35,671 bases of DNA from Deltaproteobacteria bacterium (GTDB lineage: Bacteria > JAMCPX01). Shown one piece after another: positions 1-29,077 of the stretch (within the stretch, counting starts at the first letter, position 1; the number at the start of each line of letters is the position of its first letter). Below the pieces are notes generated by a model, which made no database searches, was not told where the DNA came from, and saw nothing but the letters and a program-made list of their open reading frames with translations. Position numbers and translations under genes: made by a program. Location: the NCBI GenBank assembly GCA_023381995.1, contig JAMCVD010000079.1:1-35671 (forward strand). Direction: 5' to 3'.

Positions 1-2283
1 GGCATCGTACGTATAGAAGAGTGTCCTCCCATCCGCATTCACCTTGCCCAGAATATTGCCGTTCGGGTCGTACCAGTAGTGTGTGACCCCCGTATCCGGT
101 CCATCCATCTCGACAAGCCTGCCCATATCGTCATCGGAATAGACTGTGAAGTTGCCTAACCCCCACCATCCCAGAAAGTTAGAGTTGGCATCTCTCATAT
201 AATCAAGCCCGCCGTACATATTATACATATAGGTCGTGAGCGCAGTGCTTGCCCCATAGTACGGCGTAGAGAGATGCTGTATTACCTCGCTGACCTTGTT
301 TATGGAATTGTACTGGTACCCCGTTATGCCCCCGTCGGGGTCGGTCTGCACGACCATGTTGCCGTCGCCATCATAGCCGTATGTCGTTGTAGATGAGCTG
401 CCGTTTATGACCTGGGCGAGCCGGTTGTACCTATCATAGACATAATTCGTGTACCGCACCAGGTTGTTTTGGGGACCATAGACCTTCTGGGAGAGCTTGT
501 TCCCTTCCGTGTCATACACATACACGATCTTGCCGAAGGGCACGCCCGTGGCATTGTAACGCGTGATGCTCGTTACATCGTTCCCGGGGTCATAGGTATA
601 CACGAGGTAATCCCCCAAGGGATAGGTGACCTTCAAGAGATTGCCCATTGCATCGTAGGCAAGGTACACGGTAAGGTCCATGCCTGTCGACGATGCGCCC
701 TTCTCTGTTATCGAGGTCACCTGGCCCCGCCAGTTGTAGGTCATGTCGAACTCATGGCCGTTGGGGTCCGTAATCGTGCCCACACGTCCCATGTTGTCAT
801 AGCTGCTGTAATAGGTCGTCTGGTTCAGCGCATTGGTGATGCTCGATATGTTTCCCATGCTGTCCCGGCCATAGAGCGTGATGTTTCCATCCGCGTCCAT
901 CACCCCGGTCATGTTGCCACTGCTGTCGTAGCAGTAGTATGTCGTGTAGGCATACGGTACTATGGAAGCTGACTGGTTAAAGGTATATCCGGTCTCCGTG
1001 ATGCTCAAAAGCTCGTTTGCACTGTCGTAGGTGTAATACGTCCCCTTGTTATAGGAAGGCCACTGGATGCTGCTCGTCGTTATACTCGTGGGCTGATGCA
1101 GGGCATGGTTCCATGTGTAATACGTGGTAGTGCTGTAGTAGGTATTGTAGGCGGTGGACTTTTCGGCATAGTCCCTATACTGGTCATATCCGCTCCATAC
1201 CGTAAGGTTCCCGTTGAAGTCCGTCTGGGTAAGCTTATTGCCCCGCCAGCCATACCCGGCATATTCCCCTCCCGTTCCACCGCAGGAAGGACAGGCACCG
1301 GGACCACTCTGATATAGTATAGGCTCAGAAAGAGTGAAAAAAAGATTTGACCAGCTCAACCACCAATACTGCGTACTATTCCCAAGGGAGTTCTGTATTG
1401 CATTCTTTCCAACCCCACCACTCCCGAGCGACGTGACAGTAAATGAATAAAAACCACCATACCCCAGGTAAGAGCTCAACGTGCCATCCCAATTATAGGT
1501 ATAACTCGCTATCTGTCCGTTCGGATTGGTTATGGAAGAAAGCAGGTTGCGGTATCCATAGCTCATGGTATAGCTGGTGCCATCCGGATAGCGAATGCTT
1601 AAGAGGTGCTGCATACTATCGTATAATAAGCTGTAGATATTCCCATCGGGGTCAATGACAGTAGTCGGAAGAGTGGTCGTTGAATTGGAGTACCCGTATA
1701 AAATCTTTCGCCCGACGCTGTCCGTGGTCTCGGTAATCCTGTTATAGGAGTCATAGAAGTAGTATTTGAATGCGTCTGTCCCATCGGTTTGGGCGGTTAT
1801 CTTCCCCCCGGCACCAAGGTAAGAGATAATACCGTCCGTGTCTGTATACCCGACACCGCCAGTCGCTGTGGTAAATACAAAGCCGCCGCCAGGAAATGCA
1901 TCCGTATAGTTGTACGTAGTCCTCGTGTTGTTCACACCTATGTTTACGGACACGACATTGCCGCCTTTCTCTATAATACCCACACTGCCAAGATAGGTGG
2001 TGTAAGTGATTCCATTATAAGAATCTATATAGTATAATTGTGTCGACTTCCCTGTTATATAATCTGACAACCCAAGGCTCCCCGTGTAGTTATTGGACTG
2101 GCTCGAATAGCCTAGATCAGCATTCATTTTTAATCTACCAGGTCCCGGGGACTCGAAGAGATCAAAGGTGTGAAGCATATTGCCGGAAGGAATGACCATC
2201 GGGTCCGAACTTGTCTGCGGACATTGCTGCTGCTTGACATAAGCCTTCATCGTTATGAATGGTCGGCGGTGAAAGAGTACCAT
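1..2283 (-). CDS. YD-repeat / RHS-family protein, partial (C-terminus off the left edge)
   Basis: The minus-strand frame is open without a stop from an ATG at 2283 to base 1, about 761 codons, and continues beyond the window. It encodes tandem tyrosine-aspartate repeats of the RHS/YD type, for example TTYGYDGDGNMVVQTDPDG and THYWYDPNGNILGKVNADG near the left end. The N-terminal part has the SDPM...SGNMLHTFDL entry motif that commonly precedes the repeat shell. RHS/YD proteins form large extracellular or toxin-encapsulating beta shells. The C-terminal tip, which would show whether a toxin is attached, is not in the window. This frame has no signal peptide: it is closed by a stop at 2296-2298, and the plausible export signal lies in the overlapping ORF 2162-2599, one frame away. 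The start is therefore uncertain (ATG at 2283 or 2250), and the real protein may begin at 2599 if a frameshift separates the two parts. No SD was seen at either internal ATG. Confidence 0.85.
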   Translation of the reverse strand, partial: MVLFHRRPFITMKAYVKQQQCPQTSSDPMVIPSGNMLHTFDLFESPGPGRLKMNADLGYSSQSNNYTGSLGLSDYITGKSTQLYYIDSYNGITYTTYLGSVGIIEKGGNVVSVNIGVNNTRTTYNYTDAFPGGGFVFTTATGGVGYTDTDGIISYLGAGGKITAQTDGTDAFKYYFYDSYNRITETTDSVGRKILYGYSNSTTTLPTTVIDPDGNIYSLLYDSMQHLLSIRYPDGTSYTMSYGYRNLLSSITNPNGQIASYTYNWDGTLSSYLGYGGFYSFTVTSLGSGGVGKNAIQNSLGNSTQYWWLSWSNLFFTLSEPILYQSGPGACPSCGGTGGEYAGYGWRGNKLTQTDFNGNLTVWSGYDQYRDYAEKSTAYNTYYSTTTYYTWNHALHQPTSITTSSIQWPSYNKGTYYTYDSANELLSITETGYTFNQSASIVPYAYTTYYCYDSSGNMTGVMDADGNITLYGRDSMGNISSITNALNQTTYYSSYDNMGRVGTITDPNGHEFDMTYNWRGQVTSITEKGASSTGMDLTVYLAYDAMGNLLKVTYPLGDYLVYTYDPGNDVTSITRYNATGVPFGKIVYVYDTEGNKLSQKVYGPQNNLVRYTNYVYDRYNRLAQVINGSSSTTTYGYDGDGNMVVQTDPDGGITGYQYNSINKVSEVIQHLSTPYYGASTALTTYMYNMYGGLDYMRDANSNFLGWWGLGNFTVYSDDDMGRLVEMDGPDTGVTHYWYDPNGNILGKVNADGRTLFYTYDA

Positions 2284-2599
2284 CTGAGCAACCTTCTACT
2301 ACCCAGCCAATATAATCTACCACTTCGTTACAACTAATAAGGTTGAAGTTACAATCGAGGGTACAATTCCATTCGGTAATGGGTGTACCAGAAGTACACA
2401 TGTTTGCCCATTCACAATAGCCGCAATTGCTGTCAAATCCTGGAAGCGTTGTCTGCCAGGCAGGCGGTGGTGCCCAGAAGCCTACAATATAACCGGCAAA
2501 AGTAATACCAGGCTTAAGAAATAAAACGAGAAAGAGCGAAAACAGGTAAACTCTTATTCCGTGTGTGAGTGTCGAACACACAGCCTTTGACTGCTTCAT
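2162..2599 (-). CDS. Signal-peptide ORF overlapping the YD-repeat gene; probable N-terminus of it in another frame
   Basis: This 145-residue ORF starts at the ATG at 2599, which has an excellent SD (AGGAGG, 5 nt spacing). A TTG codon 18 nt further upstream lies on the wrong side of the SD and is rejected. The N-terminus MKQSKAVCST is followed by a hydrophobic core (YLFSLFLVLFL) and a likely signal-peptidase site after GITFA. The mature part is short and cysteine-rich (CGYCEW, CTSG, CTLDC, ISCNEVVDY). It ends about 120 nt inside the YD-repeat frame with a run of unremarkable residues before the stop. A +1 shift anywhere in about 2220-2295 would join this secreted head to the YD repeats. The ORF is either the displaced 5' end of one gene (natural mutation or sequence error) or a separate small secreted protein. 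The first is more likely because the YD frame otherwise lacks an export signal and an SD. Confidence 0.65.
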   Translation of the reverse strand: MKQSKAVCSTLTHGIRVYLFSLFLVLFLKPGITFAGYIVGFWAPPPAWQTTLPGFDSNCGYCEWANMCTSGTPITEWNCTLDCNFNLISCNEVVDYIGWVVEGCSDGTLSPPTIHNDEGLCQAAAMSADKFGPDGHSFRQYASHL

Positions 2600-2703
2600 A
2601 AACTCCTCCTCGTTCAATTGTCTGCATTGTCCCCCCCCATGTAAGGGCCTTTAACAATCAACTTTCAGAGGTGCTAAGCCTATGCTGCGTTTCTCTGGAC
2701 TGT

Positions 2704-2830: not shown

Positions 2831-5200
2831 TTACCTCGCCGCGTCTTTGCAGCACCTGAATCCTACCTCGATGTTTTCCGAGTTCGGGAGCATGTTATAC
2901 CTGTATGCACACCTCGTTGCCCAGTCGGGCTTTGCGAATGAGCCACCCTTTATGACCCGGTCCGCCCTGTCCTGCGCCGAGAACACGCTGTCGGTCCACT
3001 CCATGACATTGCCGCTCAAATCGTATACGCCATAACCGCTTACACACGCCCTGTAGCTGCCCGATGTGACTATGGACCTGTTTGTCCCATCCTTGTTTTG
3101 CGTATCGCATTTGGAAGCGTTCCACACGTTGCCATAGGGATATTTCAGGTTTGACGGTCCCTTACACGCCTTCTCCCATTCTTCCTCGGAGCATAGTCTC
3201 CTCCCTTCGTTTGCACAGATCTGCTCTGCCGTATTGAAGCTCACATCCGATTTCGGGACCATGCCTTCCCTGTCAGGATATTCGTACTTATCGATACAGA
3301 ACGACCTTACATATGTTCTTACATCGGCCTTCTCGGAGAAGTCCCTCAGCGGGTCCGTCATGCTGCTGCCCATGATAAAATATCCCGACGGTATATAGAT
3401 CATATCATCGGGGCACTTTGGGAGCGGTGGTGGCTTTGGTATTACCAGGGCGACCTTCCGCTCTCTTCTGGGGGGCTCGGTGCGTTTCCTTATCTTTTTC
3501 GGCGGCATGACCGGCGCTTCGACTCTGGGGGGGGGCTCGGGTGTCACGGGCTTTTGCTCCACCGGCTTTGGCTGGACGACCGGCGTGCCTGGGACAACCG
3601 GGGTGCCTGGTGCAATTTTATTTTCTTCCCGTCGTGCGGTTGTAGGGGAGACGTTTGCAACCTGTGTTTGTCGGCCGGCAGGCTTCAGCATGACCCATGC
3701 AAAGGCAACGGCACCTATTATAGCGATGGACAGGACAACAACAATCATGGCCATGGGCGATTTTTCCTTTGTTTTCGATTCTGGCGCAGGAGTCGCCGAT
3801 GGGTACGATACAACAGGGGGCTTTACGGGAGGGGGAGGGGGTTGTTCCGGGGGCACGGGCTTTTGTACCGCTTTGTCCTGTATTTCATTCGTGACGTTCT
3901 CAAGGTGTCTTGCGATTTCTTCGATGCCTTCGATCCTCTTATGCCCCTGCCTGCCCTGTCCCGCGTGTTCCGCCGGCTGTCCGATAACGGCGTCCTCGGG
4001 CTTCGATGCCTGGGCCTGCTGTCCTCCATTTATGGCCGGCACGGTCCTCTGTTCTGAAGGAACGGCACTCTTTATTCCTTCAGCCGGCTCCTTTTTTACC
4101 TTGTGAGCAGGGGGCGGCACAGGCGGCCCTGTTGCCGGTTGTTTTGATGTTTCACCCGTCTCTATGTACATGGCGAGCTCTTCGTCTATCTCTGTTTTGA
4201 GGATCCCGCTCTGTTCCATTCCCGCCGGGGCCTTCTGTGCCCATGCTTTCTCATCCAATGTTTTGGCCTTCTGACCGAATACCCGCAGCAGTTCTTGATA
4301 GAACTGGAACACGTACTGCGTTCTCCGATCGTGGTCTTGCTGGAGCGCCTTTAATAATATCTCGTTGACACCGTCCGGAAGCTCGTTGTTGTAGGTAGAC
4401 GGGGCGGGTGCAACGCTCCCCGGTACGATGCCTGTTAACATCTCGTACACGATAACGCCGAGAGAGTATATGTCGCTTGTTTTCGACAGTGCGCCGCCGA
4501 TGATAACTTCCGGGGCTATGTATTTATACGGGGTGCCGAGGTCCTGCTGTATGGATATGAAATCGAGGGGAGAGAGAGACGCCGTGATGCCGAGCTCCGC
4601 TATCTTGAGCCCGCCGGGCAGGATGAATATGTTCTCGGGCTTTAAATCGCCGTGCGTGATGCCGTTGTTGTGGACTTCTATGAGTGCCTTGCATATGTGT
4701 GTAAGTATCGATTCGAGCTCCTCGCCTTTAAAGAACTGTTTCATCTCCTTCCTCACGTCGAGCAGCTTCCTGAGGGTAAGGCCTTCTATGTATTCCGATA
4801 CGATGTAGACGACGCCGTCGTCTTCGCCAGAGTCATGTATGGCCACAATCTCCGGTATGTTCATCCCTACGATTGTCTTCACGGTGTCGAAAAAGCGTGC
4901 TTTTGCATTTTCCGATACGAAGAGGAAGGGCTTTATTTCCTTGAGGATGAAGACCTTTCTCTTCTCCCTGTCTCTCACCTTATAGGTATATCCTGTACCT
5001 TTCCTGTCGAGGATCTCCCTTATTTCGTACCGTGATCTTATCGTGTCGCCTATCTGATATTCTTTTATACCGGGTTGGGAAGGACGTGCATTTTCTTCGG
5101 TCTTCTTCTGTTTATCTGTCTTTGGAACAAGGGCCTGGCCGCAATGGGGACATACCGTTGTTCCTGATGGTACATCTTTAAGACATTTAAAACATCGCAC
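2831..5200 (-). CDS. Membrane Ser/Thr protein kinase-like protein with N-terminal zinc ribbon and C-terminal FGE-sulfatase (SUMF1) domain
   Basis: The protein has 789 residues with a GTG start, preceded by SD AAGGAG at 8 nt. Domains in order: a zinc ribbon (Cys 3, 6, 17, 20); a Hanks-type kinase domain (about 58-310); a long Pro-rich linker (about 350-480); one transmembrane helix (about 484-506); a second Pro-rich linker; and an FGE-sulfatase/SUMF1-like domain (about 596-785, ending in the typical GGSF...GFRC pattern). Kinase motifs seen are Lys87 in FILKEIK, HGDLKPEN at 183-190 and APE at 229-231. The DFG position reads ELG (202-204), so the metal-binding Asp is replaced by Glu and activity is uncertain. 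The topology puts the kinase in the cytoplasm and the FGE-like domain outside. FGE-like domains on bacterial kinases usually lack proven formylglycine activity, and none is claimed here. The GT-C-like gene lies 80 bp upstream in the same direction and may be cotranscribed. Confidence 0.9.
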   Translation of the reverse strand: MRCFKCLKDVPSGTTVCPHCGQALVPKTDKQKKTEENARPSQPGIKEYQIGDTIRSRYEIREILDRKGTGYTYKVRDREKRKVFILKEIKPFLFVSENAKARFFDTVKTIVGMNIPEIVAIHDSGEDDGVVYIVSEYIEGLTLRKLLDVRKEMKQFFKGEELESILTHICKALIEVHNNGITHGDLKPENIFILPGGLKIAELGITASLSPLDFISIQQDLGTPYKYIAPEVIIGGALSKTSDIYSLGVIVYEMLTGIVPGSVAPAPSTYNNELPDGVNEILLKALQQDHDRRTQYVFQFYQELLRVFGQKAKTLDEKAWAQKAPAGMEQSGILKTEIDEELAMYIETGETSKQPATGPPVPPPAHKVKKEPAEGIKSAVPSEQRTVPAINGGQQAQASKPEDAVIGQPAEHAGQGRQGHKRIEGIEEIARHLENVTNEIQDKAVQKPVPPEQPPPPPVKPPVVSYPSATPAPESKTKEKSPMAMIVVVLSIAIIGAVAFAWVMLKPAGRQTQVANVSPTTARREENKIAPGTPVVPGTPVVQPKPVEQKPVTPEPPPRVEAPVMPPKKIRKRTEPPRRERKVALVIPKPPPLPKCPDDMIYIPSGYFIMGSSMTDPLRDFSEKADVRTYVRSFCIDKYEYPDREGMVPKSDVSFNTAEQICANEGRRLCSEEEWEKACKGPSNLKYPYGNVWNASKCDTQNKDGTNRSIVTSGSYRACVSGYGVYDLSGNVMEWTDSVFSAQDRADRVIKGGSFAKPDWATRCAYRYNMLPNSENIEVGFRCCKDAAR

Positions 5201-5231
5201 TTATAATTCTCCTTCATGATAGGGTGTCAAA

Positions 5232-10631: not shown

Positions 10632-10651
10632 CACTACTGTCCCAATGTTAA
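10632..10651 (+). repeat. Left terminal inverted repeat of the IS4-family element
   Basis: It reads CACTACTGTCCCAATGTTAA and matches 18 of 20 bases to the inverted sequence at 11937-11956. Confidence 0.85.
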
Positions 10652-11814
10652 GTAAATAAATTCAACTGGTTATGCATACCACATACTTGCTCTTCCCAAT
10701 CTATGTTTGTAAGTATCTGAGAGATCGGTATTTTCTCAAAAAGTGTTACACTCAAAATCTGTAGAATTGTATAAAGGCTGTGTTCCAGTTTCAGTTGTTT
10801 CTTTATAATAGCCACCAGCACATAAACTGAGATTGCAATCCATATTTGAGTTTTCACTGCATTGTCTGTAGTGCCGTAAAACGCCTTGATTCTCAGGTGT
10901 TGTTTTATCCATTTAAAGAACAATTCTATTTGCCAGCGACATTTATAAAGCTGAGCAATTGTCAACGCAGGTAATGTGAAATTGTTGCTTAAAAAGATTA
11001 TTCCTCTGTTATTTTCTGTATCAAAGAAACGAATCCTACGCAGATGCTGTGGATAATCTTTTCTTGCATAAAAACCTTTGACTACGATAATTTGATCGGA
11101 TTGCACGCCCGTGGTTTTGTCAACGCGCTGAGAATAAAGACGCTTAAAATTAAAATTGCTTTTCGTACGAGTTACAAAGAATGCCAAAGATTGGTTGACC
11201 CTGTAAAGGCGGGCGAAATCCAGGTAACCACGATCCATTATATAAATCGCACCGGCTTCCATAATAAGCTCATCAAGAATATTGACATCGTGAACTTTAC
11301 CATTTGTTATCTTGATAACAGTGGGTATATTCCCTCGTAAATCTAAAAGTGTATGCATCTTCACAGCGCCTTTCCCTTTACGGAATTTAGCCCACAGAAA
11401 CAATGAAAGGCAAAGATCGATAGTAGTAGCATCCAGTGCAAAAGTTGTTTGTTTGAGTTCCAATCCGAAGTCATCGTTGGAATACAAGGCTCGTGCGGTC
11501 TGGATAAGCACTTGAGCAAAGTCAGCATAGATTCGCCAGTCCCTTGTTTCATTAGCATGAGCCAGAGTATTGCGAGCAACTTTGCCTCGTATACCCATGT
11601 GATAAAGTTTGTGCTTTGTTACTCGCAGACATGTCTCAATATCTCGTAGGCTTTCTCGAAATGTTAGTTGGGCAAATGCCATGCAGAGATATTGATCCCA
11701 GCATGAAAAACTCTTTACTTTGTAATTGCCACCATACCGTTCTACACATTTGCGAAACTCATAACTTGGAATAAAATCCATAAGCTGAGAAAAAATGGTT
11801 GTTCCAGTATTCAT
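10648..11814 (-). CDS. IS4-family DDE transposase
   Basis: The transposase has 388 residues and is full length, with an N-terminal DUF4372-like region (FSQLMDFIPSYEFRKCVERY) followed by the RNase H-like catalytic core. The DDE residues are visible: Asp in FALDATTIDL, Asp in YIMDRGYLDF, and Glu in the IS4 signature Y-x2-R-x3-E-x6-K (YKCRWQIELFFKWIK). The start ATG at 11814 has SD AAAGGAG. It catalyses cut-and-paste movement of its own element. The reading frame is intact, so the copy may be active or recently acquired. Its AT-rich codon use differs from the surrounding genes. Confidence 0.95.
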   Translation of the reverse strand: MNTGTTIFSQLMDFIPSYEFRKCVERYGGNYKVKSFSCWDQYLCMAFAQLTFRESLRDIETCLRVTKHKLYHMGIRGKVARNTLAHANETRDWRIYADFAQVLIQTARALYSNDDFGLELKQTTFALDATTIDLCLSLFLWAKFRKGKGAVKMHTLLDLRGNIPTVIKITNGKVHDVNILDELIMEAGAIYIMDRGYLDFARLYRVNQSLAFFVTRTKSNFNFKRLYSQRVDKTTGVQSDQIIVVKGFYARKDYPQHLRRIRFFDTENNRGIIFLSNNFTLPALTIAQLYKCRWQIELFFKWIKQHLRIKAFYGTTDNAVKTQIWIAISVYVLVAIIKKQLKLEHSLYTILQILSVTLFEKIPISQILTNIDWEEQVCGMHNQLNLFT

Positions 11815-13521: not shown

Positions 13522-14607
13522 ATGTCGTATAGACTTTTTGACAAACGGGCAGACGTCATGCGCCGGGCCCTTTTCTCCACGCTGTGCCTGCTTATGGCCG
13601 TTACACTGGCCCCGCGGTGCGGCCTGAAGGCGTCCCCGGTGCCGTACCCGCTTGCAAAGCCCGTAGCGATAAACGATCTTACAGCACTGGCAAGGGGGAA
13701 CGGCGTGATGCTGTCATGGACGATTCCGGACAAAAACACCGATGGGACCGCGCTGAAAGACATAAAAGGCTTCAACCTTGTAAGGTCCGCTATCCCTATA
13801 AAGGACATCGATACGGGCAAAAAAGAGGTCTATAAGCAATGGCGGTACGACTATAGGCCCGGTGAGCGCTACACGACGGTGAAAGATATGGATTTGAACT
13901 ACCGGGTCAGGTATTCCTACCTGGTGTTTACGGTCACGAAGAACGATATCGTGAGCGACTCGTCCAACACCGCGGTCGTCTCCTGGGACAAGCCCTTTCT
14001 CAAGCCATCCGGCATACGCGCAAAGTCCGGCGATCACTTCGTAGAGCTTTCATGGCTCTCCCCGACCGCGTACATCGACGGCTCCAGGATAAACAAGACC
14101 GTGTATTACAACGTCTACAGGAGCCCGAAGATGGGAGATTTCCCCCTGTTCCCCATAAATCCGGCACTGATATCTGGAACGACATACATCGACGGCGATC
14201 TGAAGAACGACGTCCCTTATTTTTACGAGGTAACGAGCGTGTCGAAGGTGCACGACACGCCCATAGAGAGCGTACCGTCCTCCCAGATCATCGCCGTGCC
14301 CGCTGACCTCGTATCGCCCGCGAGGCCCTATGGGGTCTCGGCCGCGCCGTTGAATGGGGGGATCGCGCTGAGCTGGGAGCCGAACACGGAGTCGAACGTC
14401 ATGGGGTACTATGTGTACAGGGAGTCGGGGAACGGCAAAGGCTTCGTCCGCGTCAATGCACGGCCGATATCCGGCACCACATATGTAGACACAGGGGCGC
14501 GCACCGGGTATACTACATACCACATAACGGCCGTCGATGATTCCCGGCAACACAACGAGAGCGCACCATCGGAAAACTATACAATACTTTACAGGAGAGG
14601 AAGATGA
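13522..14607 (+). CDS. Fibronectin type III domain lipoprotein at the head of the lysine operon
   Basis: The protein has 361 residues from the ATG at 13522, or 349 from the ATG at 13558. The N-terminus has Arg residues, a hydrophobic core (ALFSTLCLLMAVTLAP) and RCGLKASPVPYP, which resembles the CGxKG...P lipoprotein start commonly found in genes beside lysA. The Arg before the Cys is atypical for a lipobox. Three or so fnIII-like modules follow, each with DL.A...GDxVxLSW and xVYRS patterns (VMLSWTIPD near 60, VELSWLSP near 165, IALSWEPN near 275). An outer-membrane or periplasmic binding role is inferred. Its TGA overlaps the lysA ATG by 4 bp, so the two are translationally coupled. No SD is seen at either start. 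Confidence 0.8.
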   Translation: MSYRLFDKRADVMRRALFSTLCLLMAVTLAPRCGLKASPVPYPLAKPVAINDLTALARGNGVMLSWTIPDKNTDGTALKDIKGFNLVRSAIPIKDIDTGKKEVYKQWRYDYRPGERYTTVKDMDLNYRVRYSYLVFTVTKNDIVSDSSNTAVVSWDKPFLKPSGIRAKSGDHFVELSWLSPTAYIDGSRINKTVYYNVYRSPKMGDFPLFPINPALISGTTYIDGDLKNDVPYFYEVTSVSKVHDTPIESVPSSQIIAVPADLVSPARPYGVSAAPLNGGIALSWEPNTESNVMGYYVYRESGNGKGFVRVNARPISGTTYVDTGARTGYTTYHITAVDDSRQHNESAPSENYTILYRRGR

Positions 14608-15878
14608 ATTTCTTCAACTACAGGAACGGCGAGCTCTACTGCGAGGACGTGAAGGTGAGGACCATAGCGGGGAGGACAGGCACGCCCGTGTATATCTACA
14701 GCACGAGGACGCTGAGGAGACACTACGATGTTTTTAAGCGGGCGTTTGCCGGCACGGTGCCGTTGATCTGCTACTCGGTAAAGGCGAATCCCAACATCGC
14801 TATCATCTCCCTGTTCTCTTCGATGGGGGCAGGCGCGGATATAGTGTCCGGCGGAGAGCTGTTCAGGGCCGTAAGGGCCGGCGTGGAAGGCAGGGAAATG
14901 GTCTATTCCGGAGTGGGCAAGACGGCTGGAGAGATACGCTCTGCGCTCAAGAACGATATACTGATGTTCAATGCAGAGTCGCTCGAAGAGCTGGATGCCG
15001 TGGACGCCGTGGCGGGCGGTCTCGGACTCAAGGCGCCCGTAAGCATCAGGATCAACCCCGACATAGATCCCCGGACCCATCCATACATATCGACCGGCCT
15101 GAAAAAGAACAAGTTCGGCATCGATATCAGGTATGCCCGGGACGCATATGTGTACGCCAGGTCGAAGCCCAATCTGAAGATCGTCGGGGTGGACATGCAC
15201 ATAGGCTCGCAGTTGACCGACGTATCTCCGATAGTATCGGCCTTGCGAAGGGTCCTGGGGCTGGTAAGGGGGCTCGGGCGCGATGGCATAGATATACGGT
15301 ATATGGATATAGGAGGGGGGCTCGGGATAACGTACAAGGACGAGCAGGCCGCCCAGCCGGACAGGTATGCGGGGGCGATAGAGGGCGCCTTGAAAGGCTT
15401 TGGCGTCAAGCTCATACTCGAGCCAGGCAGGGTGCTCGTCGGTAACGCTGGCATTCTTGCGACAAAGGTGCTATACAGGAAACAGAATGGGACCAGGAGA
15501 TTTATGATTGTGGATGCCGGGATGAACGATCTGATAAGACCGAGCCTTTACGATGCGTACCATGAGATACTGCCGGTGATCGAAACAAGCGCAAGAAGAT
15601 TCCAACAGGACGTTGTCGGACCGATATGCGAGTCTGGCGATTTCTTTGCGCACCGGAGGAGCCTGCCTTTGCTTGAAAGGGGCCAAATGATAGCCGTTAT
15701 GAGCGCGGGTGCTTATGGGTTCTCCATGTCTTCGAACTATAATTCGAGAAAGAGGGCGGCGGAGGTGCTCGTGGACGGAGAAGATTATTATGTTATCAGA
15801 AAGCGGGAGACCGACAGCGATCTTACAAGGGGGGAGCGGATTCCTTCTTTTATCAAGGTGAGGAGTACAGATGCCTAA
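14604..15878 (+). CDS. lysA: Diaminopimelate decarboxylase
   Basis: LysA converts meso-diaminopimelate to L-lysine using PLP in the cytoplasm. This 424-residue protein has the PLP-lysine motif YSVKANPN (Lys60), the HIGSQ phosphate/substrate segment, the glycine loop DIGGGLG, EPGR, and the C-terminal CESGD and GAYG motifs with the catalytic Cys. The length fits the family. It overlaps the lipoprotein gene by 4 bp and dapF by 8 bp, placing it inside a compact lysine/peptidoglycan precursor operon. The SD is GGAGAGG before the ATG. The last step being encoded first in the operon is a common arrangement. Confidence 0.97.
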   Translation: MNFFNYRNGELYCEDVKVRTIAGRTGTPVYIYSTRTLRRHYDVFKRAFAGTVPLICYSVKANPNIAIISLFSSMGAGADIVSGGELFRAVRAGVEGREMVYSGVGKTAGEIRSALKNDILMFNAESLEELDAVDAVAGGLGLKAPVSIRINPDIDPRTHPYISTGLKKNKFGIDIRYARDAYVYARSKPNLKIVGVDMHIGSQLTDVSPIVSALRRVLGLVRGLGRDGIDIRYMDIGGGLGITYKDEQAAQPDRYAGAIEGALKGFGVKLILEPGRVLVGNAGILATKVLYRKQNGTRRFMIVDAGMNDLIRPSLYDAYHEILPVIETSARRFQQDVVGPICESGDFFAHRRSLPLLERGQMIAVMSAGAYGFSMSSNYNSRKRAAEVLVDGEDYYVIRKRETDSDLTRGERIPSFIKVRSTDA

Positions 15879-16701
15879 AAAGACTATAAAATTTACGAAG
15901 ATGCAGGGCACCGGGAACCATTTTATAGTAATAGATGCGATTAAAAAGGAAGAGAGGCTCTCTACCGAGCAGATCAAAAAGCTGTGTGCCACGGGTTTTG
16001 GAATAGGCGCGGACCAATTGTTGATGATACTGCCTTCGAGGGCCGCTGACTTCAGGATGCGCATCTTTAACGCGGACGGTGGAGAGGTGGAGATGTGCGG
16101 TAACGGTATACGGTGCGTTGCGAAGTATGTTCTCGAGCATGGGTATACCGGGAGACGCGAACTCGAAATAGAGACCCTCGCAGGTATCAAGAAGCCGGTA
16201 ATAAGGGGCGAGAGGATAAGGGTCGATATGGGCGAGCCGGCGTTCGATGCCAGGTTCATTCCGATAAGGCTCAGCGGAAGAGTAATAAACAGGGCGATAA
16301 AAGTCGAGGATGTAGAGTTCAAGATCACATGCGTATCGATGGGGAACCCTCATACGGTGATTTTTATGGATAGAATAGACAAGTTCAATGTAGCGAAGTA
16401 TGGCACCGCTATCGAAAACAACAAGCTGTTTCCCAAAAAGACCAATGTGGAGTTCGTCGAGAAGATCAACGATAACGAGTTGAAGATGCGTGTGTGGGAG
16501 AGAGGGACAGGTGAGACGCTGGGGTGCGGCTCCGGTGCGTGCGCTGCCGGTGTGGCAGGCGTGTTGAACAACAAAAACAAGGAAAAGGTATTGATCCATC
16601 TCAGGGGCGGAGACCTCGAGATAGAATGGACGAAGGACAACCATGTATACCTGACTGGACCTGCGGAAGAGGTATTCAAGGGGGAGATAGATGTCCACTA
16701 A
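15871..16701 (+). CDS. dapF: Diaminopimelate epimerase
   Basis: DapF interconverts LL- and meso-diaminopimelate without a cofactor, using two cysteines. In this 276-residue protein both are present, Cys76 in EMCGNGIRC and Cys219 in LGCGSGACAAG. The N-terminal MQGTGNHFIVID motif is also typical. It overlaps lysA by 8 bp and dapA by 11 bp. The product feeds both lysine (via LysA) and peptidoglycan. Confidence 0.97.
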   Translation: MPKKTIKFTKMQGTGNHFIVIDAIKKEERLSTEQIKKLCATGFGIGADQLLMILPSRAADFRMRIFNADGGEVEMCGNGIRCVAKYVLEHGYTGRRELEIETLAGIKKPVIRGERIRVDMGEPAFDARFIPIRLSGRVINRAIKVEDVEFKITCVSMGNPHTVIFMDRIDKFNVAKYGTAIENNKLFPKKTNVEFVEKINDNELKMRVWERGTGETLGCGSGACAAGVAGVLNNKNKEKVLIHLRGGDLEIEWTKDNHVYLTGPAEEVFKGEIDVH

Positions 16702-17581
16702 GCATATAGGCGGTATCATTACCGCACTCATAACACCGTTCAAAGACGATAGAATAGACAAGAGGTCGTATAAAGGGATTGTGGAGAGACAGATAAGGGC
16801 AGGCATACACGGTCTTGTCCCGTGCGGTACGACCGGAGAGTCCGCAACGCTCGGCTTCGACGAGCACGAGATGCTCATAGATTATACCGTAGAGGTCGCG
16901 GACGGGAGGTGCTTCGTTATAGCGGGGACAGGCTCTAATAGCACGAAAGAAGCCGTAAAGCTAACCTCTCATGCCATGAAGGCTGGTGCCGATGCAGCGC
17001 TCGCGATAACCCCGTATTACAACAAGCCCACGCAAAACGGCTTGTACGAGCACTTTCGCGCCATCGCAGAGGCCGTTGAAATACCCCTCATCCCTTACAA
17101 TGTACCGGGGAGGACGGGCGTCAACATGCTGCCCGATACTATAGCGCGGCTATCGGAGATAAAAAATATCATCGGCATAAAAGAGGCCACAGGCTCCCTC
17201 CAGCAGGTCACGGAGACCATAAAGCTGTGCAGGAAGGACTTTATAGTGCTTTCCGGGGATGATTTTACGGCACTGCCGAGTATGGCTGTGGGGGCAAAGG
17301 GCGTGATATCCGTTACCTCGAACATCGTGCCCGGGCAGATGGTGAAGATGTTCAGGGCATATGAGAAGGGTGATATGGATACCGCCAATGCTATAAACCT
17401 GAAGCTGTGGGACCTGCACTCGGCCATGTTTATGGAGAGCAATCCCATTCCTGTAAAAGCGGCCGCCCATCTTATGCGGTGGATCTCCGATGAGATAAGA
17501 CTGCCCCTTACAAGGATGACCGGAACGAACCTGGGCAGGCTTAAAGCGGTCATGGTGAGACAAGGACTTATAAATGACTGA
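16691..17581 (+). CDS. dapA: 4-hydroxy-tetrahydrodipicolinate synthase
   Basis: DapA condenses pyruvate with aspartate semialdehyde. The 296-residue TIM barrel has the substrate loop GTTGES (46-51), the Schiff-base Lys164 in IIGIKEATG, and the Tyr136 motif YNVPGRTG. All catalytic features are kept and the length is normal. It overlaps dapF by 11 bp and dapB by 8 bp. Confidence 0.97.
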   Translation: MSTKHIGGIITALITPFKDDRIDKRSYKGIVERQIRAGIHGLVPCGTTGESATLGFDEHEMLIDYTVEVADGRCFVIAGTGSNSTKEAVKLTSHAMKAGADAALAITPYYNKPTQNGLYEHFRAIAEAVEIPLIPYNVPGRTGVNMLPDTIARLSEIKNIIGIKEATGSLQQVTETIKLCRKDFIVLSGDDFTALPSMAVGAKGVISVTSNIVPGQMVKMFRAYEKGDMDTANAINLKLWDLHSAMFMESNPIPVKAAAHLMRWISDEIRLPLTRMTGTNLGRLKAVMVRQGLIND

Positions 17582-18389
17582 GCCCATCGCTGTCGCTGTC
17601 AACGGCGCTATGGGCAGGATGGGTATGCAGATATCGAAGCTGCTGCTTGAGGACCCGTCCTGTAGTATTGTGGCTGTTGTCGAGAAGAAGGGGCATCCGT
17701 CCGTAGGCGTCGACATCGGCACGGTCGTGTCCAGCAGGAAGTCCGGGGTCCTGGTCTCGGATGATTTTAATGACATAAAGGGCAGGGTAGACTGCATCAT
17801 AGATTTTTCCGCGCCCGCCTCGACGCTCTCGGTACTCCGGTACGCACAGGACAGGCACATATCCATGGTCATCGGTACGACGGGGTTCTCCGCCAAAACA
17901 GAGATGGAGGCGATTCATCGTGCGGGCAGCGAGACGGCAATTGTTATGGCCCCGAACATGAGCGTCCTGATGAACGTCGTCTTTAAGCTCGTCGAACTTT
18001 CCGCCCGGGCGCTCGGGGGCAGCTATGATGCGGAGATCGTGGAGGCACACCATAGAAACAAGGTGGATGCACCGAGCGGTACGGCACTGAAGCTGGCCGA
18101 TATCATTGCCCATGCCTACGGTAGACCGCTCGAGGAAATAGCAAGGTACGAGCGCCATGGCGCTGTTGGTGCGAGGCGCAGTGGTGAAATCGGTATTCAG
18201 TCCCTGCGCGGCGGCGACGTCGTAGGCGAGCACACGGTCATGTTCATCGGTGCCGGGGAGCGGCTCGAGATAACGCACAGGGCGACGAGCAGGGAAAACT
18301 TTGCGCAGGGCGCCGTGCTCGCAGCCAAGTGGGCCGCGGGAAAACAACCCGGCCTGTACAGCATGGCCGAAGTCCTCGGGCTAACGTAG
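17574..18389 (+). CDS. dapB: 4-hydroxy-tetrahydrodipicolinate reductase
   Basis: DapB reduces the DapA product with NAD(P)H. The 271-residue protein has the Rossmann loop VNGAMGRMG near the N-terminus, GTTGFS, and the substrate motif EAHHRNKVDAPSGTALKLA with the catalytic His pair and Lys. It is the last gene of the operon, overlapping dapA by 8 bp. It converges with the HD-GYP gene, leaving only 8 bp between stops and no visible terminator. The aminotransferase step (DapL, or DapD/C/E) is not encoded here. Confidence 0.97.
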   Translation: MTEPIAVAVNGAMGRMGMQISKLLLEDPSCSIVAVVEKKGHPSVGVDIGTVVSSRKSGVLVSDDFNDIKGRVDCIIDFSAPASTLSVLRYAQDRHISMVIGTTGFSAKTEMEAIHRAGSETAIVMAPNMSVLMNVVFKLVELSARALGGSYDAEIVEAHHRNKVDAPSGTALKLADIIAHAYGRPLEEIARYERHGAVGARRSGEIGIQSLRGGDVVGEHTVMFIGAGERLEITHRATSRENFAQGAVLAAKWAAGKQPGLYSMAEVLGLT

Positions 18390-24029: not shown

Positions 24030-26558
24030 ATGAAATTTAAGACGAAAATAACGATTGCCAATGTGATAATAACGCTCATAGCAGTCGCCGCCATATACTA
24101 TGTGACCGTCAAAACCATAAGCTTTACAATGGACGTGATAAAGTTTGTATCGATCGTCGCGGGCATCATTGTGGTAATAGCGCTCAGCATACAGTACCTT
24201 GCGAGCATAAGGCCGTTCTCGATCATAGAAGAGTTCTCTGCGAGGGTGCGCAACAACAAGACGGACGATAGATTTACTAGGCTCACCTTCTACACCGTCC
24301 TCTATTTCCCGCTCTACTTTATGGCCGTGTCGGCTGCGCAGTGGTATGTCGCGTCCATAGTCTTCTTTATCCTGCTCTATGGATTTGAGCACACGGGCCT
24401 GACGATCGCCCTGAGGACGGCCTTCGCGATCATAAGCGGTGCCACCATTGCGAATATTTTCCAGTATTTCGTGTACCAGAGATTGACGGAACCCCGGATG
24501 AGGGAGGTCCAGAGATACCTGAAGGGCACTGAGGTCTATGTAAAAAAGAGGATCGGTATCGTCGCAAAGATCTTCTTCAGCCTTTTTGTCCTGATGCTGC
24601 TGTTCCTGGTATTTATAAGGACCATCAGCAACAAGCTCATAGAGGACATCTTCAGATCGAACGGCGTCTCGTCTGCAAAGGTGGAGCTTGCCGCATACGC
24701 TCCGGCCATAAGCTCCATCCTTTCGCAGCGACTGCCTATGGAACAGACGGCCATAGCGTTGTCGAGGTTCAAACTGGGCAGCTCGGGCTACGTTCTCGTA
24801 ATGGACGATAGATATAAAGATGTCTTCCACGTATCGGACAATTACGAGAACGCCGTGCCTCTCGATGAGCTCGCCGCAAAAGACACATACAACGATTTCA
24901 AGAGTTACAGCACCCTGATCAAGGCGCCCCTGAGCGACGGCTTCTCCTTAGTCGGGGTCTATGCATGGTCCGACTATATGCCGTCCCTCTCTAAGTTTTC
25001 CGATTCCCAGAACTGGCTGCTCCTTACGATGGCCCTTATTCTCACGATCATCTCGTTGTTCATCGCAATCGATATATACCTTCCCGTAAAGGCCATCGGC
25101 TCTGTGGTGGAGAAATTGACCATGGGCAATTTCTCCACCACGAGCGGCCTGTTCGTCGAGGACGAGGCGGGGGTGGCCGCCAACGCACTCCGGAAGATGA
25201 TCGAGAACATCAAGTCCGTTATAAAGGTCATAAAGTCTTCAAGCGCCAATATCACAGGAATATCCGATAGGATGATGGATACCATCGATGGTACGCGGGA
25301 AAACATGCTCGTTCTTGACAGAGAGGTCAAAAACAATGCAGGGATCATCACCTCCGTACAAAGCACCTTGAGCCAGCTTGCGGAGTATATAGACGGCCTT
25401 CTGAACTCCATACATGATACGCTTGCGAGCAGCCATAAACTCGAGGAATCCATCGAGAGCGGCGGGAAGATACTCGCCGAAACCAAGGTATCGATAGATG
25501 CGCTCATGGATTCCGGCGATAATCTGCTGACGAAATTCGCCGCGATACAGCGGCACACGGCGGACAGCATGGGCGACATCTCTTTGGACGGCTATGGACA
25601 CCTGAGAAACGTGGATATGGACAATGAAGAGATCATCCGCAAGATAAGGACTACGATCGATTGGATGGCGGACAGCCTGAACAAGCTCGGCTCCGAGCTG
25701 CATGCGAATGTACAGTACAGAAAGCAGATGGGTAACATTTTATACAAGGTTTCGGCATTAGTCTCGACCCTCGACGAGCATGTCAACAAGATAGTCGTGG
25801 ACTTGAACAAGATCGACCTCGTCATCGACGATACGAATCTGCTTGCAATGAACTCATCCGTTATATCGGCCCAGGCCGGAGACTCGGGGAGGGGGTTCGA
25901 CGTCGTCTCGGAAGAGGTAACAAAGCTCGCGAGCGTGACGCAGGACAAGATTATAGAGGTACGCAGCCTGACCGGACTGCTCGTGAAAGAGAAAGATACT
26001 ATCATGAGCAACATGAAGGAGAAGCAGAAGTTCCTTGATGCCTTCGACGGGAAGCTGGGTCTCTTCGACAACGAGATAAGCGCCATCACCGGGAAAGTAG
26101 GCGATCTGAAGCTCGAATACGAGCAGATCGTGAAGGCCGTTAATGCCGTGTCTCTCGGGATCCATGGACTGCTGGGACACGCGGTATCGGGCAGAGACGT
26201 GCACAGGCTCATAAGCGCGGGGCTGATTCGTATAAACAAGGCCGCAGCCGATATAAACAAACATTCGAAGGCCTTCAGGGAGAGTCTGGAACAACTGAGC
26301 GGGGGATGGTCTGCTTACTCGGAAGGCCTGGGTCCTGTCTCCTCCGCACTGTCTGCCATAACCGAGCCTGCAACCATGATAAACGACCACATGAAGGCGA
26401 TAAAGGACAGGATAGGCGAGACGCAGGGACTGCTCGATCGCATCGCCGGGGCGTCCCAAAGGCTCAATGATCAGATCGGCGGCCTCGAGGTGAGGGAAGA
26501 GCTCGAAAAGCTCGTGGTTACCATTAACGAAGAGCCCAGGGAATACAGGATAATATGA
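24030..26558 (+). CDS. MCP-like membrane receptor A with divergent signalling tip
   Basis: The protein has 842 residues. Hydrophobic helices are seen at about 7-27, 35-57, 87-118 (one or two), 127-147, 180-198 and 329-349. The roughly 130-residue segment 199-328 would be extracytoplasmic. A HAMP-like stretch follows at 350-395, then a long helical cytoplasmic part. The hairpin region at about 600-635 reads TNLLAMNSSVISAQAGDSGR and GFDVVSEEVTKLA, recognisably the methyl-accepting chemotaxis protein tip, but the usual NAAIEAARAGE core is changed. The extra N-terminal helices are unlike standard two-helix MCPs. CheA/CheW coupling is therefore uncertain, and no che gene is nearby. The ATG overlaps the predicted transcription start. 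It is followed by its paralogue with a 4-bp overlap. Confidence 0.8.
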   Translation: MKFKTKITIANVIITLIAVAAIYYVTVKTISFTMDVIKFVSIVAGIIVVIALSIQYLASIRPFSIIEEFSARVRNNKTDDRFTRLTFYTVLYFPLYFMAVSAAQWYVASIVFFILLYGFEHTGLTIALRTAFAIISGATIANIFQYFVYQRLTEPRMREVQRYLKGTEVYVKKRIGIVAKIFFSLFVLMLLFLVFIRTISNKLIEDIFRSNGVSSAKVELAAYAPAISSILSQRLPMEQTAIALSRFKLGSSGYVLVMDDRYKDVFHVSDNYENAVPLDELAAKDTYNDFKSYSTLIKAPLSDGFSLVGVYAWSDYMPSLSKFSDSQNWLLLTMALILTIISLFIAIDIYLPVKAIGSVVEKLTMGNFSTTSGLFVEDEAGVAANALRKMIENIKSVIKVIKSSSANITGISDRMMDTIDGTRENMLVLDREVKNNAGIITSVQSTLSQLAEYIDGLLNSIHDTLASSHKLEESIESGGKILAETKVSIDALMDSGDNLLTKFAAIQRHTADSMGDISLDGYGHLRNVDMDNEEIIRKIRTTIDWMADSLNKLGSELHANVQYRKQMGNILYKVSALVSTLDEHVNKIVVDLNKIDLVIDDTNLLAMNSSVISAQAGDSGRGFDVVSEEVTKLASVTQDKIIEVRSLTGLLVKEKDTIMSNMKEKQKFLDAFDGKLGLFDNEISAITGKVGDLKLEYEQIVKAVNAVSLGIHGLLGHAVSGRDVHRLISAGLIRINKAAADINKHSKAFRESLEQLSGGWSAYSEGLGPVSSALSAITEPATMINDHMKAIKDRIGETQGLLDRIAGASQRLNDQIGGLEVREELEKLVVTINEEPREYRII

Positions 26559-29077
26559 AGCGGGCCAACATTTTCCTGACAGTTTTATACCTCGTCAACT
26601 CATTGATAGTGATGATGGTCTTCAGTACCGTACTCACGACGACGTACACGATAGAGATAGACGACTTTGTGCTCAATATCGTCCTCCTGGCGGCGGTCTC
26701 CATCGTCCTTTCGCTTGTTTTTTACCTGCTCAACCCCGTCCAGCTCGAGGGCATAAGGACCCTGCTGGACGAGAGGTATGACGACTCTTCCATGCGAAAG
26801 CTCGATCTGCTGGTCACCTATCCTCTGAGGGCGATACCCGTCTTTGCGACCGTATGGCTGGCCGGCATGGTCCTCTACCTGCTTGCAGGGGGGCTGACAC
26901 ATATAATCAAAGCACACGCGATGCCCCTCGGCTTCCTGTTTTCCGTTTTGTTCGTCATTGTGCTCGGCATCGTTTCGCAGACTTACTCCTTCAAGATTGC
27001 TACGAATGCATACATCTCGAGGGCCATAAAGAAGCTCAAAGTCATGGAACTAAAGAGCATCTATATACCCATCAAGTACAAGATCATAGGTATCTCGAGC
27101 ATGGTGATCGTGAGTGCCTACCTCGTCCTCGTGTACAGTGCCTATAACGGGGCCATGATATATGTGGGCCACGACGTCTATAGCAATACCCTCCGGACAG
27201 CCTCCGGCATCGCGTATACCATGGACAACAGCGCCGATCCGGAGAGCATACTGAAAGGTCTGTCCGGCAGGTTTGGTGGCAAATACAATTTCTATCTCTA
27301 CGACATGGTGGATAAGTCCGTAAAGAGCTATTCCGACGCACAGTTGAACGGCGACGTGGTAAGGCAGCTCGACAGGGAGGACGTCGTGTACGACAAACGG
27401 AACAATCAGGTGTTGTTCCTCGTGAACAGGCCCGTGACGATAAACGGCAAGAGCTATCGCCTTCTGGCGGGTATAAACAGGGACTTTTTTAATGCCCCCC
27501 TGCGTGGTTTCCTGTATAATCTGATCCTGTCCGGCATACTGATACTCATCGTCCTTATTATAACCGATATGCTCATATCGAATGACATATCCTCACACGA
27601 GAAGAGCCTGTCGGATTATTCCGTCATGCTCTCGAACAAAGAGCTTACGCACCTGCCGGAGATAGTCTCGACGGACGAGATCGGCGTGATTGTAAGCAAC
27701 ATAAGGATGCTCGTCATGAACTTCAGGGACTCCATGCTCAGGATCTCGAAAGACATAGACTCGATGAGCGGTGTCGCGACTTCGACTTCCAGCGGCATAT
27801 CCGGCATAAAGTCGGCCATCGCCGAGCAATCGAAGTATACCGATGAGCTGGTCGGTATCATTCGTTCGGTAAAGGGCGTGTCGGAGCAGATAATCAAGGG
27901 GAGTGCACCACTGAACGAGGCAACGGCAAACAATGGGCGGCTCGTCGTGCAGGCACTGCAAAAAAACAAGGAGCTGACGGTTTATCTGAACAGCGTGTCG
28001 TACCAGATAGCGCGGATATCAGCGCTCCTCACCGGCAATATAACTGTGTACGAAGATATACGGAACAATATCATCAAATTAAGCGATATCGTCGCCTCGA
28101 TCGGAACGGCATCGGGCGAAATAGACGCCGGCACGTCCGCTATGAATACGCTCCTGGCCCGGTTCTCGGAGTCCGTCAATACCATAAGAACATTGAATAC
28201 GCGGGCTGCGGAGTTCAAGAAGGACATCGAGGCGCTGCTGAGCGAGGTGATAAGCATAACGGACAATGTCCTCACCCTGCTTTCCGCATTCCTTTCGCAC
28301 ATCCAGCAGGCGAACGAGATGCTGGGGATTATCAACAATATAGCCGAGCGTACGAACCTCCTGTCCGTTAACGCCTTTATACTTGCTGCCTCCCATCAAA
28401 CGGAGGGTAAGAACTTCAAGGTGGTGGCGGAAGAGATCAAAAAGCTCGCGGACAGGGCCAGGACCGGCTCCAGGGACGTATCGAACTATATAACGAGGGT
28501 GAGGAGGAATGTGGACGAGATCCTCACAGGCATGAAAGACATGAACAGCTTTATACTACTCACGAGGCAGTCTTTTTCCTCTATCAACTCGATAGAGGCA
28601 AAGGTCGATGAGCTGGCTGCGTCCGCCATCGACCTGTACGGAGACAGGGCAGGCAGGGCCGTATCTCCCGTGGACAGGGAGACGCTCCACAATCATGGTG
28701 CGGCCGTTGGGGGGTCCGTCAGGGCACTCGTCGACGACATATCTTCGGCGGTCAGCTCGATGTCTGACATAAACAATGCGTTTACGGGGATAAAGTCCTC
28801 GCTCGAGAGGATGTCCGGGATCAACGAGGCGGACAATGCCTCCCTGACCGCTATAAACCATTCCGTCGAGGACATAAAGACCTTTACAGGCTATATAAAC
28901 GACAGCCTTGCCGTCGACGTCAGCAATCAGATACAACTGTCTCAGAATTCGGCGATGGAATTGAGCGGCCGAATCAAGGACAACGAACAGACCATCCATG
29001 GGCTGGAGGGCATCGTCGGGCAGCTCACGTCCGAGCTCGAATCCCTGAACAGGGCCATAAAATCGTTCATAGTATAA
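26555..29077 (+). CDS. MCP-like membrane receptor B, paralogue of receptor A
   Basis: The protein has 840 residues and the same layout as receptor A. Helices are at about 7-27, 38-58, 92-113, 123-143, 175-197 and 321-340, with an extracytoplasmic segment of about 120 residues (198-320), a HAMP-like linker and a long helical region. The tip at about 592-635 reads INNIAERTNLLSVNAFILAA then SHQTEGKNFKVVAEEIKKLA. The MCP frame is clear, but the conserved Glu and the AGExGRGF part are replaced by a different sequence. The two receptors have similar length and arrangement, and the ATGA overlap makes equal expression likely, so a heteromeric receptor is a reasonable inference. recO follows one base after the stop codon. 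Confidence 0.8.
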   Translation: MKRANIFLTVLYLVNSLIVMMVFSTVLTTTYTIEIDDFVLNIVLLAAVSIVLSLVFYLLNPVQLEGIRTLLDERYDDSSMRKLDLLVTYPLRAIPVFATVWLAGMVLYLLAGGLTHIIKAHAMPLGFLFSVLFVIVLGIVSQTYSFKIATNAYISRAIKKLKVMELKSIYIPIKYKIIGISSMVIVSAYLVLVYSAYNGAMIYVGHDVYSNTLRTASGIAYTMDNSADPESILKGLSGRFGGKYNFYLYDMVDKSVKSYSDAQLNGDVVRQLDREDVVYDKRNNQVLFLVNRPVTINGKSYRLLAGINRDFFNAPLRGFLYNLILSGILILIVLIITDMLISNDISSHEKSLSDYSVMLSNKELTHLPEIVSTDEIGVIVSNIRMLVMNFRDSMLRISKDIDSMSGVATSTSSGISGIKSAIAEQSKYTDELVGIIRSVKGVSEQIIKGSAPLNEATANNGRLVVQALQKNKELTVYLNSVSYQIARISALLTGNITVYEDIRNNIIKLSDIVASIGTASGEIDAGTSAMNTLLARFSESVNTIRTLNTRAAEFKKDIEALLSEVISITDNVLTLLSAFLSHIQQANEMLGIINNIAERTNLLSVNAFILAASHQTEGKNFKVVAEEIKKLADRARTGSRDVSNYITRVRRNVDEILTGMKDMNSFILLTRQSFSSINSIEAKVDELAASAIDLYGDRAGRAVSPVDRETLHNHGAAVGGSVRALVDDISSAVSSMSDINNAFTGIKSSLERMSGINEADNASLTAINHSVEDIKTFTGYINDSLAVDVSNQIQLSQNSAMELSGRIKDNEQTIHGLEGIVGQLTSELESLNRAIKSFIV

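Follow-up and report, generated by a model that had tools for sequence, protein, structure and literature searches.

What does a membrane protein do when its inner half is built like a Ser/Thr kinase but reads ELG at the DFG motif, and its outer half is built like the formylglycine-generating enzyme (FGE)? The gene that raises this question lies in the window, i.e. the whole stretch of DNA analysed here (35,671 nucleotides), with the following features.

5209-5214, minus strand: AAGGAG, likely ribosome-binding site, with an 8-nt spacer to the GTG start
2831-5200, minus strand: whole coding sequence, 789 aa, with zinc-ribbon motif, degenerate Hanks-type kinase, linker, transmembrane (TM) helix, linker and FGE-type domain
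5141-5194, minus strand: zinc-ribbon-like CxxC-x10-CxxC, residues 3-20, from the conservation of its four Cys
4286-5053, minus strand: kinase domain, residues about 50-305, from Pfam, AlphaFold2 and matches to the PknA, PknI, Stk1 and PknB folds (Z 24-28)
4940-4942, minus strand: beta3 Lys87, kept, invariant in 60 of 60 alignment rows
4883-4885, minus strand: Thr106 at the alphaC Glu position, from the motif alignment
4646-4648, minus strand: catalytic-loop Asp185 (HGD), kept in the window protein, from the motif alignment
4589-4597, minus strand: Glu202-Leu203-Gly204 replacing DFG (codons GAG CTC GGC)
3686-3754, minus strand: TM helix, residues about 483-505, from the sequence
2840-3421, minus strand: FGE-type (C-type-lectin-like) domain, residues 594-787, from Pfam, AlphaFold2, fold matches and Cys counts

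The earlier note had read a chain of zinc ribbon, kinase, Pro-rich linker, TM helix and FGE-like domain, and this is borne out by Pfam (Pkinase, residues 68-282, E 2.8e-33; FGE-sulfatase, residues 648-784, E 3.3e-27), by the four-Cys motif and by the hydrophobic helix; the Pro-rich linker joins the kinase domain to the helix and a second linker precedes the FGE-type domain. Cys 3, 6, 17 and 20 of the zinc-ribbon motif are invariant in six of six aligned rows; the matches of Pfam zinc-ribbon models to the protein all stay below cut-off. Structure prediction of both domains, which the same note had proposed, was carried out with AlphaFold2 on alignments of window sequences and fetched relatives. 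Residues 1-330 (60-row alignment) give a complete bilobal fold resembling PknA, PknI and Stk1, with a pLDDT of 91.9 (Z 27.9, rmsd 2.0 and 245 aligned residues against PknA 4x3f), and residues 585-789 (42-row alignment) give a domain with the FGE and SUMF2 folds, with a pLDDT of 96.5 and Z of 23-25 (up to 24.6). The inner domain has a Hanks-type (PknB-like) kinase fold; against the profile of PknB PASTA kinases, NF033483, the protein scores 173.8 bits, under the NCBIfam cut-off of 450.

In a phmmer alignment to StkP, ELG stands opposite DFG and HGD opposite HRD, and the motif alignment places Glu at 202 with Lys87 and Asp185 kept, residues and numbering as previously given. The kinase also keeps Lys187, Asn190, the APE Glu and the alphaF Asp. 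The losses extend beyond ELG: Thr106 occupies the alphaC Glu site in a helix (97-113) devoid of any Glu, the GxGxxG loop reads DRKGTG with two glycines gone, and in the catalytic loop, His183-Gly184-Asp185, Gly replaces the HRD Arg. Among the residues by which an active kinase is recognised, the beta3 Lys and the HRD Asp are thus present, the alphaC Glu and the DFG Asp absent. Since its DFG Asp is Glu, the protein is by its motifs a pseudokinase under the definition given in the accessible part of PMC12599244, which asks that at least one of the beta3 Lys, HRD Asp and DFG Asp be missing. The loss of the alphaC Glu is no proof of inactivity.

Our sample of the own phylum comprises nine genomes of one family and four genera; an orthologue or a fragment of the gene was found in seven of them, the remaining two genomes being incomplete. 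The catalytic motifs are readable in six orthologues: HGD/ELG in the window, G001 and G002, HGD/EFG in G003, HGD/DFG in G004 and HGN/DLG in G007. Glu at the DFG Asp site, found in four of these six and in no other of the 138 kinase rows (140 before identical ones were merged, rows with fewer than 200 aligned sites and duplicate loci having been dropped beforehand), is encoded by GAG or GAA in four separate genome assemblies, which rules out a sequencing or assembly error, or chance, as its origin. G003 and G007, which belong to one genus, have a kinase-domain identity of 79% and an FGE-domain identity of 88%; the title of the G007 contig (L050) gives a coverage of 0.77, so that its single-base states, HGN included, could be errors. 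G004 carries on contig C59 (L141:3-551) a second, truncated FGE end, 76-77% identical to that of the window, while its full copy on C17 has diverged; this end is either a second gene or a binning error.

Between the window gene and its same-genus orthologue in G001, dN/dS is 0.077 in the kinase domain and 0.089 in the FGE domain, whereas the linkers give 0.32 and 0.42; purifying selection thus acts strongly on both domains. Across the six orthologues, with segment borders set after seeing the alignment, alphaD and its linker are invariant at 20 of 23 positions and the catalytic loop at 12 of 13; the alphaC region, invariant at 3 of 25, is the least conserved part.

A scan of named genomes and a search of 195 genomes from the phylum of G035, which we take from named relatives to be Myxococcota, brought many relatives with the full architecture: at least 48 of the 195 hold a single near-full-length match, and in others the match is split. 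We built a tree from 93 of the 138 rows, after removing eleven motif columns, which include the catalytic positions and the alphaC site; it comes from a quick search and has long branches. It places the window protein in a clade of 61 non-HRD rows (SH-aLRT 95), which come from several phyla and share its architecture; some of them are near-identical (clustering at 80% identity leaves 40 representatives). Of the 61, 56 are without the alphaC Glu. The catalytic Asp is kept in 43 and missing in 18, with at least 12 changes within the clade, while the DFG Asp is kept in 57 and replaced by Glu in four, with two changes, these counts being parsimony minima on one tree; 39 rows keep both Asp and 22 are without one of them. 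The beta3 Lys persists while the other catalytic residues drift. All 32 rows outside the clade have intact motifs, a contrast which is partly by construction because 22 of them were picked for canonical motifs; in the own phylum, the 11 distinct non-clade kinases examined all read HRD and DFG. The rest of the architecture is steady: a hydrophobic helix separates kinase and FGE domains in each of the 55 clade rows having both, and in 54 of 61 rows a zinc-ribbon motif precedes the kinase. The clade has besides gained sites of its own, mostly in alphaD, the flank of the catalytic loop and the activation segment: Arg144 (frequency 0.95 inside vs 0.30 outside), Glu189 (0.95 vs 0.13), Phe214 (0.85 vs 0.07) and Leu194-Pro195.

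These comparisons change the weight of the ELG motif. A family search for its conservation had been proposed, and ELG proves not to be a family hallmark: Glu is confined to four of the 138 rows, all own-phylum orthologues, and Asp-bearing homologues exist, such as G004 of the same family and the 57 clade rows mentioned above. The suggestion of a weakly active kinase or pseudokinase is on the other hand strengthened, because of the additional losses in the window kinase (alphaC Glu, glycine loop, HRD Arg) and because catalytic residues have been lost repeatedly within the clade; sensing through the FGE fold, the other part of that suggestion, is a conjecture.

The first alternative to inactivity is that the protein has remained an active though slow Ser/Thr receptor kinase of conventional type, in which Glu202 would hold the metal, the loss of the alphaC Glu would be compensated, as it is in other unusual kinases, and the FGE-type domain would be the sensor. 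The change from Asp to Glu is conservative, the fold is complete, and a salt bridge may replace the alphaC Glu in the DYD kinases, according to the portion of PMC12599244 consulted. Besides, the genome of the window contains six kinase genes by our search, the other five all with HRD and DFG, and an architecture twin with all motifs intact (L001:337-2439, G000:C134), a 700-aa protein with zinc ribbon, HRD and DFG kinase, hydrophobic helix and FGE-type domain. Lys87, Asp185, Lys187 and Asn190 of the window protein, and the 39 clade rows with both Asp, speak for this alternative and are to be counted against the pseudokinase reading. Against activity, several catalytic features have gone together, the catalytic Asp has changed repeatedly within the clade, and the alphaC region is precisely where the orthologues are least conserved. 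Residual kinase activity is a serious rival, although we consider it unlikely.

The kinase fold might alternatively perform another nucleotide chemistry, e.g. AMPylation or glutamylation, activities that the available sections of PMC12599244 ascribe to the pseudokinases SelO and SidJ. The invariance of the beta3 Lys and of the loop Asn amid the drift of other residues would fit such an activity; however, no family-wide substitute catalytic residue stands out, and the gained sites, given their position described above, do not favour it either. We hold this reading to be improbable.

Could the outer half be the enzyme instead, carrying out formylglycine or related thiol chemistry under the control of the kinase half? 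Its fold is that of FGE, and each of its ten Cys recurs in 47 to 55 of the 55 clade rows. The catalytic pair of human FGE, with its copper role, is Cys 336 and 341 (numbers from PDB titles). In an alignment to the human enzyme, Cys764 is the counterpart of the second, and 54 of 55 clade rows have a Cys there; the first has none, its place lying close to Asp759, a site with Asp in 37 of 55. The domain has the FGE fold but, by this alignment, not both catalytic Cys. Its best profile match is moreover SUMF2, the FGE paralogue, and no sulfatase (PF00884) was found in the own genome, 84% complete, in which we found six FGE-type genes. With the first Cys missing and no sulfatase found, a sulfatase-maturing enzyme is disfavoured, and we judge an enzymatic outer half to be very improbable. 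The FGE domain of the intact twin is without several of the ten Cys (e.g. RLPTEAQWEKAARG vs RLCSEEEWEKACKG in the window protein). Pseudokinases are not alone in having the ten-Cys type, for a Cys-rich FGE domain is also joined to the intact kinase of L067. Cys-rich FGE-type proteins, 34-35% identical to the outer domain, are also found on three viral contigs of 200-278 kb (L129, L130 and L131).

That the gene is simply decaying, ELG being one step of the drift by which several consensus residues were lost, is hardly credible for an open frame with so low a dN/dS in its kinase part and an orthologue or fragment in every own-phylum genome but the two incomplete ones. The low dN/dS of the domains, the near invariance of alphaD and catalytic loop and the clade-specific sites together indicate, at the level of the alignments, that fold and surface are conserved.

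On balance we favour, with reserve, the reading in which the inner kinase fold has mostly ceased to transfer phosphate and acts as a regulated binding module of a single-pass membrane pseudokinase; judging from the residues kept and lost, the window protein is probably a signalling scaffold rather than an enzyme. With its N-terminus inside, the protein would have a cytoplasmic kinase domain and an extracytoplasmic FGE-type domain. The latter, Cys-rich and presumably not itself an FGE, would bind a ligand or a protein of the envelope, and this binding might alter the clustering or the conformation of the protein across its single TM helix. Inside, the kinase fold would have lost phosphotransfer but perhaps still grip a nucleotide through Lys87 and Asn190, and its highly conserved face (alphaD, alphaE, activation segment) could be offered to a partner in the cytoplasm, for which an intact kinase is plausible.

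A wider proposal, which we put forward tentatively, is that the clade forms a family of receptor-like proteins across phyla, with an inner kinase and an outer FGE-type domain that are both dead enzymes and transduce signals as scaffolds beside intact zinc-ribbon-kinase-TM-FGE twins, like the one in the genome of the window. If true, this family would correspond in bacteria to those receptor pseudokinases whose partners are active receptor kinases. Few studies have dealt with bacterial pseudokinases, and the clade offers one architecture in several phyla, whose catalytic residues drift while the remainder of the kinase domain is tightly held. It also offers natural single-residue pairs (HGD/EFG vs HGN/DLG among congeners, and DFG from a sister genus) and, for the window protein, an intact twin encoded by its own genome, so that activity, nucleotide binding and partner binding are directly comparable.

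The neighbourhood of the gene designates no partner: none is kept adjoining the window locus across the own phylum. In two loci of deeper branches, L044:1660-7098 and L046:1955-6684, both on the minus strand, the clade gene directly precedes a TonB-dependent receptor gene; a PF04392 substrate-binding protein comes after the receptor in L044 and follows the clade gene in L045 and L067. As L067 has an intact kinase, we claim no partner. Neighbours of the dUTPase (dut) kind (L047, L052, L057, L058 and L064, the last checked by Pfam) or of the adenylosuccinate-lyase (purB) kind (L047, L065, L070, L074 and L092, of which L070 was checked) recur beside the clade gene in Myxococcota-like loci; a cluster of response-regulator/GGDEF neighbours in eight loci was judged generic because their positions differ among loci. 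In L069:5433-10361 and L070:5617-10163 the degenerate gene is directly preceded, on the same strand, by one for an intact Ser/Thr kinase. In the window itself, a small ORF that contains Cys and begins close to a hydrophobic stretch at its N-terminal end (2162-2617, minus strand) lies just downstream of the kinase gene and overlaps an RHS-repeat gene (1-2283, minus strand) cut by the contig end. The window also contains a DDE transposase with DUF4372 (10648-11814, minus strand), a row of lysine/diaminopimelate genes (14604-18389, plus strand: PLP decarboxylase, DapF, DapA, DapB) and two adjacent overlapping genes (24030-26558 and 26555-29077, plus strand) of about 840 aa each, both with MCP signalling domains.

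How does this protein compare with known systems? Fusions of kinase and DUF323 (FGE) were described in 2005 and 2007 (PMC1262709, PMC2176072): these chlamydial and cyanobacterial Ser/Thr kinases have, like the window protein, a kinase followed by a C-terminal FGE-type domain, then called NirV/DUF323 and now FGE-sulfatase. The N-terminal zinc ribbon and the loss of catalytic residues belong to the window protein and are absent from the available parts of these descriptions, the comparison being one of descriptions only. The kinase-FGE fusion has thus been known since 2005, and we found the degenerate zinc-ribbon-kinase-TM-FGE clade nowhere in the literature searched; some of its members may be listed in the published myxobacterial kinome (PMC2572974). 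For Myxococcus xanthus, the accessible text of PMC6791715 gives 99 such kinases, of which 11 are counted as pseudokinases. Neither FGE nor formylglycine occurs in the text of the 2025 review of bacterial pseudokinases (PMC12599244); in the part of its Table 1 available to us, one bacterial pseudokinase has Glu at the DFG site (EIG, Nocardia asteroides U5EIF8).

Outside kinases, SUMF2 (pFGE, PDB 1y4j), termed a non-functional counterpart in the portion of PMC1262709 at hand, has the FGE fold in common with our outer domain but carries no kinase. In the type 9 secretion ring, PorK/GldK likewise uses an FGE-type fold, as a structural part of the envelope; unlike the window protein it is a lipoprotein and has no kinase, and its profile, TIGR03525, gives the window protein 50.2 bits, far under the cut-off of 350. 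Among the bacterial pseudokinases presented in the sections of PMC12599244 consulted, the families ActPs1-3, GLW, CP1, DYD and DLHK share with the window protein the loss of at least one triad residue, and many are membrane-bound. The DYD proteins are also without the alphaC Glu, but Arg replaces their beta3 Lys and their motif is DYD, whereas the window protein keeps Lys87 and reads ELG, which places it outside that family. EssB/YukC is a single-pass membrane protein whose cytoplasmic kinase-like domain is a non-catalytic scaffold, as we propose here; it differs in that all three motifs are degraded and no FGE-type domain is described in the same sections.
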